DNA of 64,000 nt from an uncultured Roseburia sp. GTDB lineage: Bacteria > Bacillota > Clostridia > Lachnospirales > Lachnospiraceae. Both the position numbers and the translations under genes were made by a program. The DNA lies in contig CANONN010000012.1 in the NCBI GenBank assembly GCA_947567625.1, positions 1 to 64,000 on the forward strand. The letters are read 5' to 3'. Positions 23,616-62,496 of the stretch are shown one piece after another (within the stretch, counting starts at the first letter, position 1; each line of letters opens with the position of its first letter). A model generated the notes under the pieces. That model ran no database searches. It was not told the DNA's origin and was given only the letters and a program-made list of their open reading frames with translations.

Positions 23616-25112
23616 ATGAAAAAGAAAATAGCTGCGATTTTACTGGGAACGATGCTTTGTAGCACGCTTACCGCCTGCGGTGGAAAGGACGGGGAGGATG
23701 CCGTCCAATCCACGGAGCAAAGCGAGACAGGCGACGTTTCGCCTGCCGAATCCGAAACTGCGGATACAGAGACGGGCTATGTTAGCGAGAGCCGCGGATA
23801 TCAGATCAAAGGCTCCGATTATGTTGTCTCCCTCTGCGACTACAAAGGGGTTCCGGTCACTCTGACGAGAGATTACAGCGTCGAGAGACAGGATGCCGTC
23901 GATTATCTGAGTGAGACGATCGACGACTTTACCGAGCAATACGGCGGATTTTATCTGGCGGATGACACAAAGACCCAGGTCGGAGCCGGCGACGTGGTCA
24001 ATGTCGACTATGTGGGGACATTGGACGGCGAGGAGTTTACCGGGGGCAGCGCCACCGATCAGAATATCGACGTGGACAACAACCGTTCCGTGGGCAGTCT
24101 GGCTTCGGGCGCTTATATCGAAGGCTTTACCGACGGCTTAAAGGGAGCCAAGGTGGGCGATACGATCGAATCCAAGGTGACGTTCCCAGCCGATTATGGA
24201 AATAAAGATCTGGCCGGCAAAGAAGTCGTGTTTACTTTTACCGTGAATTCCGTGCAAAAACAGGTGACGATTGATAATGTAGACGATGCGTTTGCCAAAG
24301 ACCAGTTCCGGGTAGATACCGTGGAGGAGATGTGGCAGTTCTTGGAGGATTATCTCACCAGCCAGGCACAGGCACAGCGGGGGAGCGATATCAACGGAGC
24401 GATACAGGATTATATGCTCGCAAACTGCGAGTTAAATCTGCCGGAGGATTACCTGGCAGCCAGATTAAACGATTACAGACATTCTTTTGTCGAGACCAAC
24501 TGCGGCGGAGATGAGAGCCAGCTTGAGAATTATCTTAGCACTTACTATGGCGTTACGCTCGAGGAAGCGCAGGAGACCTGGGAGCGGGGAATCCGCGAGC
24601 AGGTGGGCATGGAGTGTATTATGGACGCCGTGGCCGACAAGGAGGGAATCACGTTCGTGCAGGAAGAGTACGACGCGTATGTCAAGGCCCTTGTCGACAG
24701 CGGAACGTACAACTCACAGGAAGATATCTATTACAGCTACGGATACGGTGACACGGTATACGGCGAAAACTATACCAAGGCGCTCTATCTGAGCAATCTG
24801 GCGCTGGATGTGGTAAAACAGGCAGCGGTGATCACCGAGGATGTGACAGGGGAAAGCGAGACGGCGTCAGGAAGCGAGACGGTGTCAGGAAGCGAGACGG
24901 CGGGAAGTGAGACGGCATCAGGAAGCGAGACAGCGGGAAGTGAAGCGGCGTCAGGAAGCGAGACAGCGGGAAGTGAAGCGGCGTCAGGAAGCGAGACGGC
25001 GGGAAGTAAAGCGGCGTCAGGAAGCGAGACAGCGGGAAGTGAAGCGGCGTCAGGAAGCGAGACGGCGGGAAGTGAAGCGGCGTCAGGAAGCGAGACGAAA
25101 GGGAAGCAGTAA
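23616..25112 (+). CDS. Lipoprotein with FKBP/trigger-factor-like peptidyl-prolyl isomerase
   Basis: This 498-residue protein has a lipoprotein signal peptide ending in LTACGG (Cys21). An FKBP domain follows at about 120-215 (GDVVNVDYVGTLDGEEFTGG, then GLKGAKVGDTIESKVTFP), and next a helical domain like the C-terminal arm of trigger factor (about 220-400). It would work outside the membrane, helping secreted proteins fold. The last 88 residues are a tandem repeat of 11 residues (GSETAGSEAAS), a flexible and acidic tail. GGAGG lies 8 bases before the ATG. The rarA gene follows 93 bases later. Confidence 0.87.
   Translation: MKKKIAAILLGTMLCSTLTACGGKDGEDAVQSTEQSETGDVSPAESETADTETGYVSESRGYQIKGSDYVVSLCDYKGVPVTLTRDYSVERQDAVDYLSETIDDFTEQYGGFYLADDTKTQVGAGDVVNVDYVGTLDGEEFTGGSATDQNIDVDNNRSVGSLASGAYIEGFTDGLKGAKVGDTIESKVTFPADYGNKDLAGKEVVFTFTVNSVQKQVTIDNVDDAFAKDQFRVDTVEEMWQFLEDYLTSQAQAQRGSDINGAIQDYMLANCELNLPEDYLAARLNDYRHSFVETNCGGDESQLENYLSTYYGVTLEEAQETWERGIREQVGMECIMDAVADKEGITFVQEEYDAYVKALVDSGTYNSQEDIYYSYGYGDTVYGENYTKALYLSNLALDVVKQAAVITEDVTGESETASGSETVSGSETAGSETASGSETAGSEAASGSETAGSEAASGSETAGSKAASGSETAGSEAASGSETAGSEAASGSETKGKQ
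24888..25097 (+). repeat. 33-bp tandem repeat in the lipoprotein gene
   Basis: Six 33-bp units encode GSETAGSE(A/T)AS, followed by a partial unit. One unit has Lys in place of Glu. Near-identical DNA copies suggest recent expansion by slippage or recombination, so repeat number probably varies between strains. Confidence 0.9.
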
Positions 25113-25205
25113 GCGCCAGCTTACTATGGCGTTGCATATTTCATCTGGATTTGCGCCGCGCAACAGCCGCAATCTGGCGGCTGCGTGACGAGGAGGGAGA
25201 GCGTC

Positions 25206-30850: not shown

Positions 30851-32557
30851 ATGTACCAAGGAAAACCATTGTATCTAAACTACCATTATCAGTTGCATCA
30901 GAGGAAGAAGAGGAAACAGCAGCAGATGAGGCGCGTGTTGGCTATGGCCCTCGCGCTCGGTCTCGCCGTGCTGTTTCTATTTCCGTTTGGGCAGCCGCCG
31001 CAGGTGAGCGCATCGGCTGCGCCGGAACAGAGTGCGGCATCGTCGGCAGAGTGCGCACAGCAGCCGGGAGAACAAAATCCGGCACCGTCGGCAGAATGTG
31101 CACAGCAGCCAGGGAATCAGAATCCGGGGCTGTCGGCAGAGTATGCACAGCAGCCGGGGAATCAGAATCCGGGGCTGTCGGCAGAGTATGCACAGCAGCC
31201 GGGGAATCAGAATCCGGGGTTGTCGGCAGAGTATGCACAGCAGCCAGGGAATCAGAATCCGGGGATGGCCGCAGAGAGCGTGATGCCACCGGCGGAATCG
31301 GGAGCGTCCGATGTGTCGCAGGGTATGTTTGCGGCGGCTGGCTGCGAAGTGGGAGGCGAGGCGGACACGAGGGAGAACGCGGCGCTTGGCGAGACGCCTG
31401 AGAGTGACGGGACAGCGGAGGCGCCGCTGATTTTTATAGACGCCGGACACGGCGGCATGGACGAGGGATGTGCCCGCGGCACTGTGTGGGAGAAAGATAT
31501 CAATCTTGCGATCGCGCGGCGTGTGCAACAGGCGCTGGAACTTTTGCAGTACCGTGTGATGATGGCGCGGGAGGATGACACTTATATCGCCAAAGAAGAG
31601 CGCGTCAGAATGGCAAACGAGGCGCGTGCGTCGCTCTATGTGAGTATCCATCAAAATGCCGCGGACGACGCCGCCGCAAACGGCATCGAGGTCTGGTATG
31701 ACGAAGCAAACGGCGCGCGCGGCAGCAAGCGGCTGGCGCAGCTTGTCAGCCAGCAGACGCTGCTTTCTACCGGGGCGCAAAAGCGCGCGGTGCGCGGCGA
31801 CGCGGATTTTCACGTCACCGGAAGTACAAATATGCCCGCCTGCCTGATCGAGACCGGTTTTTTATCGCACCCGGCCGAGAGCCGAAAGCTTGCTTCCTTG
31901 GAGTATCAGGAGCAGCTTGCGGCTGGCATCGTGCAGGGTGTCGCTTACTACTTTCATCCCAAAACCATGTACCTGACATTTGACGACGGTCCTTCCAAGG
32001 AGAACACAGCGCGGGTATTGGATATATTGAAAGAGCAGGGAATCAAGGCCACTTTTTTCCTGGTCGGCGAAAATGTGGAAAAGCACCCGGATATGGCGCG
32101 GCGCATCGTCGCGGAGGGCCATGCGGTCGGGATACACTGTTACCGGCATGATTACGGGATGCTCTACGAGAGCGTGGACAGTTACATACAGGATTTTGAG
32201 AAAGCGCGCCGGATTGTCTATGAGGTTACGGGCGTGGATACGAAGCTGTTTCGGTTTCCGGGCGGCAGCGTCAATGACTTTAACCGAAAGACCGGAGAGG
32301 CGATTGCCCGGGAAATGACGAGGCGGGGGTATGTTTATTTTGACTGGAACGCCAGCCTGGAAGATGCTGTCAAAACATCGGAGCCGCAGGAATTGATTGC
32401 CAATGCCTTAAACTCCACGCTGGGGCGCAAAAAGGTGATTATGCTGGCGCATGATGTCGTCTATCACACCGGCGTATGCCTGGATGACCTGCTGGAGTGC
32501 TTTCCGGAGTATGAGATGAGGACGCTTGGGGAGGAGGTAGAACCGATCCGGTTTTAG
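30851..32557 (+). CDS. Muramoyl amidase fused to polysaccharide deacetylase
   Basis: This 568-residue protein appears to act on the cell wall with two catalytic domains. A membrane segment (about 27-46) after a basic start suggests export or anchoring. Residues 65-139 are five 15-residue repeats (SAEYAQQPGNQNPGL). An Amidase_3 domain (about 192-368) has DAGHGG with His200, Glu214, His267 and the catalytic Glu334 (LIETGF). A NodB deacetylase domain (about 372-560) has TFDDGPS with Asp378/Asp379 and the metal ligands His429 and His433. Together they could cut the stem peptide from the glycan and remove N-acetyl groups. AGGAGG precedes the ATG at 30851. Confidence 0.92.
   Translation: MYQGKPLYLNYHYQLHQRKKRKQQQMRRVLAMALALGLAVLFLFPFGQPPQVSASAAPEQSAASSAECAQQPGEQNPAPSAECAQQPGNQNPGLSAEYAQQPGNQNPGLSAEYAQQPGNQNPGLSAEYAQQPGNQNPGMAAESVMPPAESGASDVSQGMFAAAGCEVGGEADTRENAALGETPESDGTAEAPLIFIDAGHGGMDEGCARGTVWEKDINLAIARRVQQALELLQYRVMMAREDDTYIAKEERVRMANEARASLYVSIHQNAADDAAANGIEVWYDEANGARGSKRLAQLVSQQTLLSTGAQKRAVRGDADFHVTGSTNMPACLIETGFLSHPAESRKLASLEYQEQLAAGIVQGVAYYFHPKTMYLTFDDGPSKENTARVLDILKEQGIKATFFLVGENVEKHPDMARRIVAEGHAVGIHCYRHDYGMLYESVDSYIQDFEKARRIVYEVTGVDTKLFRFPGGSVNDFNRKTGEAIAREMTRRGYVYFDWNASLEDAVKTSEPQELIANALNSTLGRKKVIMLAHDVVYHTGVCLDDLLECFPEYEMRTLGEEVEPIRF
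31043..31267 (+). repeat. Five 45-bp tandem repeats in the amidase-deacetylase gene
   Basis: Five in-frame units of 15 codons encode a Pro/Gln/Asn-rich linker between the membrane anchor and the amidase domain. The last three units are almost identical in DNA, which points to recent expansion. A flexible spacer of this kind would let the enzyme reach across the wall. Confidence 0.92.
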
Positions 32558-36444: not shown

Positions 36445-36812
36445 GATTGCCAGACCCGGTTTTCTAAGATAATCAAATGATAGGCTCATTGGTTCAATAT
36501 AGTTTTATTTGTATCATGATTGGTTCAATATCGGTTTATTTTCCTGTTGCGGTTTTTGCTCTCTGCGTATATACTGCAATTATCACAAGAACCGGATAGG
36601 GAATAGATATATGCCCTGATTGCAGATGAGAAATCACCTGCGCGAATTTCTCATCGCTTGTCATAGCAGTAAACTGCTCTGACATGGATGATTAGGTCGC
36701 ATAAATTGCTCGATAGCCATTCATTCAACCTGGAACAAATTCTATGATGGCAGAGCGAAATCTGACATCCCGTTCGCTTTCTTGGCACAAAACGCTTTGA
36801 ATGGAGGAACGT
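36445..36812. other. Intergenic region with the 80-bp two-hairpin element
   Basis: This 368-base gap contains the first copy of the 80-bp repeat (36609-36688). It also has a second folded part (36750-36780) with GCAGAGCGAAATCTGACAT and the stem AGCGAA/TTCGCT, resembling the aminotransferase leader. It ends in the ATGGAGG ribosome site. An AT-rich run near 36490-36560 may hold a promoter; GGTTCAATAT occurs there twice (36493-36502 and 36522-36531). Confidence 0.5.
36609..36688 (+). repeat. 80-bp two-hairpin repeat, copy A
   Basis: This element differs from copy B (40846-40925) at only five positions over 80 bp. Hairpin one pairs GATGAGAAAT with ATTTCTCATC. Hairpin two pairs TGTCA and GCAGT with ACTGC and TGACA. 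It ends in GACATGGA. Confidence 0.85.
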
Positions 36813-40735: not shown

Positions 40736-40756
40736 AAAACCAAATTAGGATGATTC

Positions 40757-40822
40757 GGTTGAAAAATCAGCTTGATGGAGGGATAGGTTGAAAAATCAGC
40801 TTGATAGCTGATTTTGTCAACC
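40757..40822 (+). repeat. 20-bp direct repeat and hairpin upstream of hslO
   Basis: GGTTGAAAAATCAGCTTGAT occurs at 40757-40776 and 40786-40805. The second copy folds with AGCTGATTTTGTCAACC (40806-40822) into a stem with one bulged C. Between the copies lies GGAGGGATAGG, which is found again as the ribosome site of hslO. The linker ATTTGAGTC follows at 40827-40835. Confidence 0.75.
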
Positions 40823-40845
40823 AGCAATTTGAGTCAGAGCCCCAA

Positions 40846-40925
40846 ATATGCCCTGATCGCAGATGAAAAATCGCCTGCGCGAATTTCTCATCGCGTGTCA
40901 TCGCAGTAAACTGCTCTGACATGGA
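40846..40925 (+). repeat. 80-bp two-hairpin repeat, copy B
   Basis: Copy B of the element at 36609. Both inverted repeats are preserved (one base pair of the first stem becomes G-A mismatched by the G-to-A change at its position 22). Its end, GACATGGA, runs directly into the GGAGGGATAGG ribosome site of hslO. Confidence 0.85.
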
Positions 40926-40933
40926 GGGATAGG

Positions 40934-41800
40934 ATGAACGACTATATTGTGAGAGCTACGGCGGCTGACAGCCAGATTCGCGCGTTTGCCATTACATCTA
41001 AGAATATGGTGGAGACGGCGCGGCGCGCCCACGGCACGACGCCGGTCATATCGGCGGCGCTGGGACGTCTGCTGTCCGGCGCGGCTATGATGGGAACCAT
41101 GATGAAAGGGGAGAAAGATCTGCTGACGGTGCAGATACAGTGCAGCGGTCCGGCCAAAGGACTGACGGTGACGGCGGATGCTTTGGGGAACGTCAAGGGA
41201 TTCCCGAGTGTGCCGAAGGTAGAGCTGCCGTTAAACGACAAAGGCAAACTGGACGTGGGCGGCGCGCTTGGTCTCGGCGTTATGAGCGTGATCAAGGATA
41301 TGGGCCTAAAGGAACCCTATGTCGGGCAGATCGCCTTGCAGACCGGAGAGATCGCGGAAGATTTGACGTATTATTTTGCCACGTCGGAGCAGGTGCCCTC
41401 GGCCGTGGGGCTCGGCGTGCTGGTGGATAAAGACCTGACCATCAAGCAGGCCGGCGGATTTATCGTCCAATTGATGCCGTTTGTAAATGACAGCGTGATC
41501 GAGCGCTTGGAGAAGAAGATCACCGAAATAAAATCGGTGACGGAGATGTTGGAGGACGGGAATACGCCGGAGCAGATCTTAGAAATCATTCTGGGCGAAT
41601 TCGGAGTGGAGATCACGGACACGATCGAGACCGCGTTTGTCTGCGACTGTTCCAAGGAGCGGGTGTCCCGCGCGATCTCCACCTTGAGCAAAAAAGATTT
41701 AAACGATATCATCAATGACGGGGAGGCGATCGAGGTGAAGTGCCAGTTCTGCAATCACGCCTACCGCTTTGATATCGAAGAATTGAAAAAGATGAGGTGA
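40934..41800 (+). CDS. hslO: Redox-regulated chaperone Hsp33
   Basis: Hsp33 is a cytoplasmic holdase that is switched on by oxidation. Four cysteines hold zinc when reduced and form disulfides under oxidative and heat stress. The 288-residue protein shows the N-terminal core (RATAADSQIRAFAITSK) and the C-terminal zinc switch with CDC and, about 30 residues later, CQFC. Family length fits. The ribosome site GGAGGGATAGG is shared with the end of the 80-bp repeat, so the repeat could influence translation. The nadE gene begins 2 bases after the stop and is probably co-transcribed. Confidence 0.95.
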   Translation: MNDYIVRATAADSQIRAFAITSKNMVETARRAHGTTPVISAALGRLLSGAAMMGTMMKGEKDLLTVQIQCSGPAKGLTVTADALGNVKGFPSVPKVELPLNDKGKLDVGGALGLGVMSVIKDMGLKEPYVGQIALQTGEIAEDLTYYFATSEQVPSAVGLGVLVDKDLTIKQAGGFIVQLMPFVNDSVIERLEKKITEIKSVTEMLEDGNTPEQILEIILGEFGVEITDTIETAFVCDCSKERVSRAISTLSKKDLNDIINDGEAIEVKCQFCNHAYRFDIEELKKMR

Positions 41801-59733: not shown

Positions 59734-59747
59734 AAATGGGAGGCTAT

Positions 59748-60872
59748 ATGCTGCAATTTGTGAAGGGGATGGATTTGTCCACACTGCTGGAGTTAAAGCG
59801 GTGCGGCGCAAAGTATTATGACAACGGGCAGGAGACCGATATCCTGGAAATTATGAGGCGGTATGATGTGGATACCATCCGTCTGCGCATCTGGAACAAT
59901 CCGTGGTCAGATGGGGGGGAGTCTTACGGCGCGGGAGAAAACGACGTAAAAACGACCTTGGCGATTGCTAAAAAGGTGACGGAGGCAGGCTTTGGCGTGC
60001 TGCTTAATTATCACTACAGCGATTTCTGGGCGGACCCGGGCAAACAGATCAAGCCCAAGGCGTGGAAAGATTACGGCGCAGAGGAGCTGAAGCGGGCGGT
60101 TTACGATTTTACCCTGGAGACGACCAACCTGTTTTTGGACGAGCAGGTCAACGTCACAATGATACAGGTCGGAAACGAGCTCTCCAACGGTCTGCTCTGG
60201 CCCGAGGGGCAGTATCCGAATTATGACAATATCGCCGCATTTGTCAGCGCGGGCATCAGAGCCGTGCGGGCGGCGCAGGAAGCGCACGGGATGAAAAAGA
60301 TACCGATTATGATTCATCTCGATAACGGCGGCAACAATAAGCTCTACCGCGACTGGTTTGACCACTATATCGAGCGCGGGGAGGATTTTGATATCATCGG
60401 ACTGTCCTACTATCCGTTCTGGCACGGCACGCTGCAAATGCTGGAGGATAATATGAACGATATCGCGGAGCGTTACGGCAAAGAGCTGATCGTGGCCGAG
60501 GTTTCGATGGGGTATACCATGGAAGACTATCAATCATACGAGAAATTGGAAGATAAAGAGCGCAAGGGCTATGCGACGAGGCGGGAACTGATCGAAAAGA
60601 TCGAGTATCCGATGACAAAACAGGGACAGCTCGATTTCACAAAAGATTTTTTGCACCGCATTACCCATATCAAGGGAAATGCCGGCAGAGGATTTTTCTG
60701 GTGGGAGCCCGCGTGGATTCCGGTCGCGGGTTCCGGCTGGGCAACCAAAGAATCCTTAGCGTATATGGGAGATCCGGGGCCCTGCGGCAACGAGTGGGCG
60801 AATCAGGCACTGTTTGATTATGAGGGGAATGTCAACCCGGCGTTCGCCTATATCCGGGATTTTCAGCCGTAA
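59748..60872 (+). CDS. ganB: Endo-beta-1,4-galactanase, glycoside hydrolase family 53
   Basis: GH53 enzymes cut the beta-1,4-galactan side chains of pectin (arabinogalactan type I). The 374-residue protein begins directly with the catalytic barrel (VKGMDLSTLLEL), shows the family phrase RLRIWNNPW, acid/base Glu144 (VGNELSNG) and nucleophile Glu251 (VAEVSMGY), and ends at the barrel with WWEPAWIP. There is no signal peptide, which is unusual for this normally secreted enzyme and suggests action on imported galacto-oligosaccharides. GGGAGG lies before the ATG at 59748. A folded leader precedes the gene, and three tandem folded elements follow it. Confidence 0.93.
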   Translation: MLQFVKGMDLSTLLELKRCGAKYYDNGQETDILEIMRRYDVDTIRLRIWNNPWSDGGESYGAGENDVKTTLAIAKKVTEAGFGVLLNYHYSDFWADPGKQIKPKAWKDYGAEELKRAVYDFTLETTNLFLDEQVNVTMIQVGNELSNGLLWPEGQYPNYDNIAAFVSAGIRAVRAAQEAHGMKKIPIMIHLDNGGNNKLYRDWFDHYIERGEDFDIIGLSYYPFWHGTLQMLEDNMNDIAERYGKELIVAEVSMGYTMEDYQSYEKLEDKERKGYATRRELIEKIEYPMTKQGQLDFTKDFLHRITHIKGNAGRGFFWWEPAWIPVAGSGWATKESLAYMGDPGPCGNEWANQALFDYEGNVNPAFAYIRDFQP

Positions 60873-61326
60873 TAGTGTGAAGAGAAGTTCTAAGGCTCGC
60901 AGCAAAGGCTGCTCACCAAGAACTTCTAAAGCTTCACACCGAAGAATGCCTAAAATACGGCATTCTTCATCCCGATTTGAGTCGCGGCAGGGCCGCGACA
61001 TGTAGGTAAGTGTGAAAAATACATCTAAGGCAGCAAAAAACACTGCCTAAGAAGTATTAAGTTTCACACAAGAAAAACGCAAAAGCGGCGTTTTTCATAC
61101 CTATTTGAGCCGCCAAAGGCGGCATGGGGATTAGTGTGAGAAGAACTTCTAAAGCTCATGCCAACGGGCATTTCGATAAGAAGTTCTAAGTCTCTAATGC
61201 GAACAAGTTCGCATTGGAGAATGCCTAAAAACGGGCATTCTCCGCGCGGATTTGAGTCGCGGCTTGGCCGCGACATGGGGGTAGCGTGGAATCGTTTTTG
61301 GATTTAAGATAAAGGAGGAGGGGCCT
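60873..61326 (+). other. Gene-free region before galK filled with tandem folded elements
   Basis: This 454-base gap consists almost entirely of three consecutive copies of a folded element (60875-61280), described separately, followed by a 40-base tail with the GGAGGAGG ribosome site of galK. No promoter with good boxes is seen, so galK may be read from upstream through the elements. Confidence 0.7.
60875..61280 (+). repeat. Three tandem copies of a structured element with compensatory changes
   Basis: Copy 1 starts at 60875, copy 2 at 61010, copy 3 at 61134. Each starts GTGTGA and has a long first stem (AGAAGTTCT/AGAACTTCT in copy 1, AATAC and AGGCAG stems in copy 2, AGAACTTCT/AGAAGTTCT in copy 3). 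Each has a second hairpin (GAAGAATGCC, GAAAAACGC or GGAGAATGCC with exact complements), the linker ATTTGAGYC, and a GC hairpin (GTCGCGGC or GCCGCC). Each closes with ACATG or GCATG plus G-rich bases. Stems are kept although their sequences differ, which argues for an RNA or cruciform function. Confidence 0.85.
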
Positions 61327-62496
61327 ATGGTCTGGGAAAAGGTACTGGAAAAGTTTCAGGAGATATTTGGAAGTGAGGGTGAGATCGGCGTCTATTTTGC
61401 GCCGGGGCGCGTCAATATGATCGGGGAGCACACCGATTATAACGGCGGTCACGTCTTTCCGTGTGCCCTCACGATCGGGACATACGGCGTGGCGCGAAAG
61501 CGTGCGGACAAAAAGCTGCGGTTTTACTCGATGAACTTTGAAAAGCTCGGCGTGATCGAATCCTTGGTGGAGGGTTTAAAGCCGGAAAAAGAGGCGGACT
61601 GGACCAATTATCCCAAGGGCGTGATCTGGGCGTTTGGCGAAAAAGGGATGAAGGTAGAGCAGGGCATGGATTTGTTGCTGTTTGGCAATATTCCAAACGG
61701 CTCCGGCCTTTCCTCCTCGGCTTCCGTGGAGGTTTTAACCGGCTTTATCCTGCGCGATCTGTTTGGCTTTCAGGTGACAAACCAAGATCTGGCGCTGATC
61801 GGCCAGTATTCGGAAAACAAGTTTAACGGCGTCAACTGTGGGATTATGGACCAGTTTGCGATTGCCATGGGCAAGAAAGGACACGCCATATTCCTCGACA
61901 CCGCGACGCTCAACTACGAGTATGCGCCGATCAAGCTGGAACATGCCAAGATCGTAATCTCGTGCAGCAACAAAAAGCGCGGCCTCGGGGATTCCAAATA
62001 TAATGAGCGGCGCGCAGAGTGCGAGCGCGCGCTGGCGCAGCTTCAGGAAGCCGTCAAGATCGATTCCCTGGGAGAGCTGACCTGGGATGCGTTTGAGCAG
62101 TATAAGGATGCCATCAAGGATGAGATCTGCAGAAAACGCGCCAAACATGCGGTCTATGAGAATCAGCGCACCATACAGGCGGTGAAAGATTTAAAAAACA
62201 ACGATCTGACAGATTTTGGACAGTTGATGAACGAGTCCCATGTCTCGCTGCGGGATGACTATGAGGTCACCGGCGTCGAGCTTGACACGCTGGTGGAGGA
62301 AGCCTGGAAAATCGACGGCGTCATCGGTTCGCGCATGACGGGCGCTGGTTTTGGCGGCTGTACGGTGAGCATCGTAAAAGACGAGGCGGTCGATTTGTTT
62401 ATCGAGAAGGTGGGAAGCGCCTATCGGGATAAGATTGGCTATGCGGCGGACTTTTATGTGGTAGAGATTGGAGATGGGCCGGTGAAGCTGGCATAA
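61327..62496 (+). CDS. galK: Galactokinase
   Basis: GalK phosphorylates alpha-D-galactose at C1 with ATP, the entry to the Leloir pathway. The 389-residue protein has the galactokinase signature GRVNMIGEHTDYNGG near residue 28, the GHMP ATP loop GNIPNGSGLSSSAS near 120, the catalytic-base region CGIMDQFAIAMG, and the C-terminal GAGFGGCTVS. Family length fits. GGAGGAGG lies 7 bases before the ATG. It follows GH53 in the same direction behind three tandem folded elements and feeds galactose from the beta-galactosidases into metabolism. Confidence 0.96.
   Translation: MVWEKVLEKFQEIFGSEGEIGVYFAPGRVNMIGEHTDYNGGHVFPCALTIGTYGVARKRADKKLRFYSMNFEKLGVIESLVEGLKPEKEADWTNYPKGVIWAFGEKGMKVEQGMDLLLFGNIPNGSGLSSSASVEVLTGFILRDLFGFQVTNQDLALIGQYSENKFNGVNCGIMDQFAIAMGKKGHAIFLDTATLNYEYAPIKLEHAKIVISCSNKKRGLGDSKYNERRAECERALAQLQEAVKIDSLGELTWDAFEQYKDAIKDEICRKRAKHAVYENQRTIQAVKDLKNNDLTDFGQLMNESHVSLRDDYEVTGVELDTLVEEAWKIDGVIGSRMTGAGFGGCTVSIVKDEAVDLFIEKVGSAYRDKIGYAADFYVVEIGDGPVKLA

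Follow-up and report, generated by a model that had tools for sequence, protein, structure and literature searches.

In the 64,000-nucleotide stretch of DNA analysed here (the window), the junction between ganB and galK is filled by three structured units arranged head to tail on the + strand. The upstream gene, ganB (59736-60872), is a GH53 gene of the endo-galactanase type (Glyco_hydro_53 match, E 6.9e-109) and ends in a TAA stop codon at 60870-60872 on the + strand. This stop lies directly 5' of a TA at 60873-60874 (+ strand), which flanks the array on the left. A second TA, likewise read from the sequence, flanks the array on the right at 61282-61283 on the same strand. The downstream gene galK, encoding galactokinase, occupies 61327-62496 on the + strand, with its ATG at 61327. 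With the array removed, the ganB-galK gap would measure about 45 nt, an ordinary operon junction.

All three units, each on the + strand, are recovered by a covariance model (R1), which was derived from nine copies located elsewhere in the genome, using a structure written by hand. Unit 1 (60875-61006) is matched at 60874-61008 with 125.5 bits (E 3.8e-27) and unit 3 (61134-61281) at 61133-61283 with 97.8 bits (E 2.0e-20). Unit 2 (61010-61131) is matched at 61009-61132 with 91 bits (E 8.9e-19), a recovery that is not independent, as a near-identical copy (L007) is among the model sequences. Unit 1 consists, in order, of a long stem with conserved CTAA bulges, a second hairpin, an ATTTGAG linker, a GC hairpin (hairpin 3) and a purine-rich tail.

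The predicted folds are strong. Measured against 200 dinucleotide shuffles, units 1, 2 and 3 reach z-scores of -8.4, -8.7 and -5.9, beating all 200 shuffles each time, and the 461-nt stretch 60870-61330 reaches -11.9. A preliminary description of this DNA had reported three tandem structured elements before galK that keep one fold. The elements are indeed present; in copy 3 the fold is kept in part, as the outer portion of the first stem is unpaired in the prediction and an additional hairpin (61191-61220) is placed there. The linker, in the longer form ATTTGAGYC, and the GC hairpin were found in all three copies, as described; ATTTGAGYC occurs five times in the window against 1.2 expected. 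The arms of the second hairpin also read as quoted there, GAAGAATGCC/GGCATTCTTC in copy 1 and GGAGAATGCC/GGCATTCTCC in copy 3, with one A-T to G-C change, and copy 2 has a different stem that is also paired. In the first stem, the arms said to be exchanged between copies 1 and 3 in fact show the flip of a single base pair, AGAACTTCT and AGAAGTTCT differing at the middle base only.

Such an arrangement could be read as a cis-regulatory RNA, that is, a tandem riboswitch or protein-binding leader controlling galK and other genes. The strong fold and the covariation described below are in keeping with this reading, as are the conservation of CTAA and ATTTGAG outside the stems, the sense orientation and the position before start codons. 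Against it, neither a terminator-like nor a promoter-like site was found in 60800-61400. A search of the whole window against Rfam 15 gave no match at gathering score, in agreement with the earlier statement that the element could not be assigned to a known RNA family; with E-value thresholds over 60700-61400, what the array matched fell well short of the families' gathering scores (best E 0.33), and nothing usable emerged. Two features of the locus weigh instead against the mobile-element reading set out below: a ribosome site supplied by the array is unnecessary at galK, which has its own purine-rich Shine-Dalgarno-like stretch at 61314-61323 and starts 43 nt downstream of the array end, and ganB stops with a TAA placed ahead of the left TA. 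At this locus the array probably has no dedicated regulatory role, except that it makes the intercistronic RNA longer and more structured.

Copies, ends and related classes

BLAST of the array against its own genome returned 54 matches over many contigs, the array itself included. Eight additional sites in the genome carry the unit 2 subtype with 97-100% identity; at one of these the copy is truncated by a contig end. R1 gave 42 matches in the same 3.4-Mb draft at E <= 0.1, namely the three window units and 39 others. Two draws of genomes were searched under stricter filters, by which weak matches are lost: in the first, of 99 genomes including the own one, 18 had matches (E <= 0.001), every one of them belonging to the own genus (61 genomes in this draw), and none of the 38 genomes from other families of the order had any; in the second, over the taxonomic family, matches (E <= 1e-4) were found in 22 of 299 genomes, these being the own genome and 21 of 297 from other genera. 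An exact 28-base pattern matched an uncultured Roseburia sp. record and an uncultured Lachnospiraceae assembly. Viral contigs searched with one exact 28-base pattern yielded no element, and distant blastn of the array (E 0.001) found none in phages or plasmids. The three window copies are members of a dispersed repeat family, whose small elements lie between adjacent genes of gut bacteria, and not a galK-specific RNA. At the level of published abstracts we found no description of this hairpin-element family; one may still exist.

The galK loci of relatives bear directly on the regulatory reading. No unit was found at any of 29 such loci (E <= 1); 14 of these loci come from genomes in which the family is present at other sites. 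The genes that follow the elements are unrelated (galK and fabD, with hslO after another class, among the few carrier genes named), and near-identical copies point to recent copying. Together with the Rfam result, these observations make a cis-regulatory RNA improbable in our judgement. By eye, the regions upstream of galK in many relatives (L090-L118) hold a similar TTGTTGCA...TTGCAAAG...TATAAT block, which is absent from the ganB-galK gap of the window.

The units, mostly 105-170 nt long, follow the plan 5'-(TA)-GYGTGA hairpin 1 - hairpin 2 - ATTTGAG - hairpin 3 - ATGGRGR(T)-(TA)-3'. Hairpin 1 is opened by GYGTGA and its inner stem is bordered by the conserved CTAA, while hairpin 3 lies between the ATTTGAG linker and the tail ATGGRGR(T). 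At tandem junctions the sequence reads ..GGRGRT-TA-GTGTGA.... A left TA is present in 83 of 106 distinct flanks, counted without a first-position-A filter (the filtered count, 78 of 86, partly presupposed the TA) and with left flanks from a pattern search requiring GGRG on the left excluded as evidence. On the right, the tail could be recognised in 57 flanks, and in 47 of these a TA lies within 3 nt of it; the 41 flanks without such a tail were not counted. As read from these boundaries, the two ends of the element are not inverted repeats of each other (GYGTGA... at one end and ...ATGGRGR at the other). In 63 of 92 units, an ORF read from a GTG near the 5' end reaches its stop codon before the unit ends.

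Inspection by eye shows, in the same genomes, further classes that have similar ends and differ in their bodies. An element of another class with such ends lies at 40786-40929 on the + strand (fold z -3.7). It shows, in order, a TA, a 5' hairpin, the ATTTGAG linker, a 3' stem, ATGGAGGGA and a TA, followed by the hslO ATG at 40934; five bases separate its GGAGGG from this ATG. Fragments akin to a second element class are found in the window at 36605-36700 and 40748-40783. Positions 36609-36696 and 40846-40933 are 91% identical over 88 nt, and GGTTGAAAAATCAGCTTGAT is present twice, at 40757 and 40786. A longer second class, with the same kind of ends, reads GTGTGAAAAATCAGC...GCTGATTTT.TCACAC...ATTTGTGCC...GGAATGGAGAT. 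It was seen at L013, L017, L020 and L209, with relatives at L194-L196, L206 and L212, and also in members of the genus without an R1 match (G006, G015 and G043). Elsewhere in the window, the tandem repeats at 24837-25133 and 30983-31276, whose periods are 33 nt and 45 nt, are perhaps repetitive protein segments.

Position at operon junctions, occupied and empty

Placement relative to genes was analysed for 119 hits in 99 arrays, a set taken from the loci fetched and not from every model match; 11 matches scoring less than 45 bits and one locus that was represented twice had been removed, and nine loci from other genera added. Genes were called with a simple codon-usage caller, and orientation and distances were counted after excluding six arrays into which a called gene extends. 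Of the 93 remaining arrays, 67 point the same way as both neighbouring genes and 3 the opposite way to both; 14 lie one each way, and for 9 one neighbour is missing.

Many elements sit directly on the stop codon of the preceding gene. Where the upstream gene is co-directional, its stop is in 36 of 78 cases a TAG whose first two bases are the flanking TA and whose G opens the element, and in 7 of 78 the TGA inside GYGTGA; for the TAG stops the null fractions are 0.16 (sense TAG after genes in the window) and 0.10 (TA). A fairer, per-gap null takes each gap's own TAs as equally likely, and under it the stop enrichment is much weaker overall than against intergenic TAG or TA, with 33 of 74 observed and 23.3 expected (p 0.0008). 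Gaps of at least 40 nt give 18 of 44 against 6.7 expected, and gaps below 40 nt show no excess (15 of 30 against 16.6 expected). The next start codon lies within 10 nt downstream in 30 of 74 cases (23.0 expected, p 0.001). In 26 of those 30 the last 14 nt of the element contain a Shine-Dalgarno-like motif, with a spacing of 5-10 nt in 23 of the 26. Shine-Dalgarno-like sequence just 5' of the upstream stop showed no enrichment (8 of 38, compared with 18 of 85 at other TAG stops). Operon gaps that are short and contain few TAs would by themselves produce much of this placement at stops and starts.

Comparison of two close relatives, G032 and G040, whose matched flank stretches are 77-93% identical, revealed differences at many junctions. 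A total of 26 flank pairs were queried (12 from G032 and 14 from G040), and 19 sites were read. At the cleanest of these, the fabK-fabD junction, G040 is empty and reads GGGGAATAGAATG (fabK ...GGGGAATAGAATGGG... fabD), and G032 is filled and reads GGGGAATAG, the unit and CATGGG. This is the sole compared site that is empty to the base without a TAGTGTGA trace. At another site G032 reads GGAAAATAGTGTGAAACAGG, where G040 has the same sequence with one unit between two TAs, and an array that follows a GAATAG stop in G040 is missing from G032. Leaving fabK-fabD aside, the counterpart locus in the second species contains, at most of the sites read, a short TAGTGTGA trace, a fragment from the 5' or 3' side, a different copy or an element of another class; at some there is no unit, and the gap is not alignable to the base. 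Near-empty sites with TAGTGTGA alone (L061 and L219) may be either pre-insertion sites or deletion footprints. A comparison of L135 with L061 agrees with duplication of the TA at insertion.

Compensatory changes in the hairpins

The preliminary description had suggested a covariance-model scan as a check, and such a scan yields additional structured copies whose compensatory changes lie far above both controls. The alignment comprises 123 matches, of which 118 are distinct; it includes the nine sequences of the model as well as some weak matches. Two-sided changes are seen in 37 of 40 pairs and amount to 564 cells, where shuffles gave 179 and slid controls no more than 90, and 93.9% of the alignment cells pair, in an alignment that was fitted to the model and in which one inherited change is counted many times.

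Selection on structure had been proposed as the simplest reading. The strong pairing and the compensatory changes bear out part of this, but a functional RNA does not follow from them, because the copies are dispersed, recently copied and flanked by TA, occupy sites that are filled in one genome and empty in another, and shuffle their hairpin modules, and because the galK loci of relatives lack the element. In substance the earlier observation is right, and readings other than a structured regulatory RNA account for it better.

The covariation could instead arise at the DNA level, where template switching would make or repair the arms and recombination would shuffle the hairpins, with RNA selection unneeded. 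This explanation competes with the earlier reading and is compatible with a mobile element. DNA template switching is described, in the part of the source consulted (PMC8794818), as a mechanism able to give two-sided changes without RNA selection, and hairpins that move as modules can also yield them. Such shuffling is observed: among the best 90 rows, the stem-1 arm AGAACTTCT is combined with six different stem-2 arms. Two-sided changes far exceed one-sided ones. Extra near-perfect hairpins are also found within units; short palindromes such as AACGTGAAACAAGTTCACG and AATGCGAACAAGTTCGCATT lie in the loops and stems of elements (L013, L018, L020 and window unit 3), as if small hairpins themselves spread or arise by template switching.

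The balance of G-U and A-C cells was compared in several subsets. The pairs are nearly all Watson-Crick, with 110 G-U and 80 A-C among 4286 cells over all rows, 56 and 58 in well-aligned rows, and 18 and 12 of 797 in 25 units aligned without the model, as upkeep of the hairpins in DNA would predict. On the other side, G-U exceeds A-C by 81 to 33 in the least redundant set and by 41 to 21 of 938 cells in 42 units aligned without the model, and in genera other than the own one the structure is still picked up by the model. A control with the TPP riboswitch of the own genus (21 sequences) gave 28 G-U and 5 A-C among 294 cells; its departures from the commonest pair, 7 G-U and 5 A-C, are too small to calibrate the comparison. 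The counts are compatible with RNA selection and with DNA-level hairpin upkeep alike and do not decide between them. We regard a DNA-level origin of the covariation as a serious possibility, if one somewhat short of even.

Mobilising enzymes and comparison with known repeats

No autonomous copy of the element was seen. A Y1 transposase (PF01797) is present in 20 of the 61 genomes of the genus (7 of 18 carriers and 13 of 43 non-carriers), and an IS630-type DDE_3 enzyme in 9 of the 61 (4 of 18 carriers and 5 of 43 non-carriers). Neither was found in the three richest carriers (the own genome, G032 and G040), whose draft assemblies are incomplete. Considered as mobilisers, the two enzymes showed no association with carrier status over the 61 genomes.

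REP and BIME sequences are dispersed palindromes with a short signal at the hairpin foot and are linked to RAYT transposases. The present elements are likewise dispersed palindromes, and a Y1 transposase (RAYT or IS200/IS605) moving them as single-stranded DNA would suit their asymmetric ends, subterminal hairpins and short 5' signal TTAG/ATAG, a resemblance drawn from general knowledge. The enzyme's absence from the three richest carriers, which sets the element apart from REP/BIME, and its lack of association with carriers make this origin highly doubtful.

Alternatively, the element could be a MITE derived from a TA-duplicating transposon of the IS630/Tc1-like kind, the autonomous partner having been lost or being missing from the draft assemblies. 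The TA on both sides, the length of mostly under 170 nt, the fold and the intergenic location all agree with this, and in these traits the element resembles RUP, ERIC, Correia/NEMIS and CIR, which are listed in the consulted part of PMC2229807 as folded repeats under 200 bp with TA ends. CIR is likewise catalogued there without terminal inverted repeats (PMC2229807). For a MITE, the missing terminal inverted repeats are an obstacle, as is the distribution of DDE_3, found in fewer than a quarter of carriers and in none of the three richest, and we consider this origin unlikely. The element further differs from these repeats in its strongly sense orientation, its position at stop and start codons, its three-hairpin order, the several classes that share its ends and the fact that no partner transposase was found for it among Y1 and DDE_3.

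The BOX repeats of Streptococcus pneumoniae, described in the consulted part of PMC3049150 as modular, tandem-repeated, structured interspersed repeats judged parasitic, are similar in kind. Compared by description, the element has no boxA/B/C order, repeats as a whole unit and belongs to another host group.

MIRUs have a polarity that follows the operon, form tandem arrays and are present or absent at orthologous operon junctions. The element has these features too: it keeps one polarity (67 of 93 arrays sense to both neighbours, 3 antisense to both), stacks in tandem and is present or absent at orthologous junctions. By description and not by sequence, it is also alike in being short, apparently mobile and placed at start codons; MIRUs are characterised, in the text available for PMC12548453, as short, apparently mobile repeats that insert at start codons and are thought to cost gene expression little because translation stays coupled. 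They achieve this coupling through an internal ORF that overlaps the next start (PMC12548453), whereas the ORF of the element mostly stops inside the unit. The element also differs in its Shine-Dalgarno-like tail, its three hairpins and its flanking TA. It works like a MIRU and is not filed as one, because the internal coupled ORF was not found.

Copies of the element are scattered over the genome and recent in origin, and orthologous junctions differ in whether they contain one; the element is flanked by TA and almost always in sense. Often the TA and its first G form the upstream stop, or its 3' tail sets a Shine-Dalgarno-like motif 5-10 nt before the start. We consider it likely that the array is a small non-coding mobile element, MIRU-like, that was inserted in the ganB-galK operon junction and is nearly transparent to translation. 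A candidate trans-acting enzyme would copy the element into TA sites, recognising its hairpins or its ends. The layout would let it lodge in operon junctions with both proteins intact and little loss of downstream translation, and because both are spared, the element could spread and stack as tandem arrays. The arms may stay complementary because the folded form is recognised, because template switching repairs palindromes and hairpin modules are shuffled, or for both reasons.

A broader reading, which we offer tentatively and think rather less than probable, is that the element belongs to a superfamily of ORF-less hairpin cassettes. About four classes, distinguished by eye, would combine different bodies with the same ends, and would stack or replace one another at the same stop-to-start junctions. 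A hairpin-reading enzyme that prefers stop and start codons would insert them at TA, and operons would tolerate such a module because it brings its own ribosome-binding tail.

These repeats also carry a caution for comparative work. Covariation in repeats is no proof of a functional RNA, since hairpin modules that are moved or repaired as DNA can give the same signal, and in these genomes such repeats could pass for tandem riboswitches. Short mobile repeats are already known; the combination of a stop-codon landing site, a near-exclusive sense orientation and a ribosome-binding tail amounts to a clear, testable design for spreading through operons.
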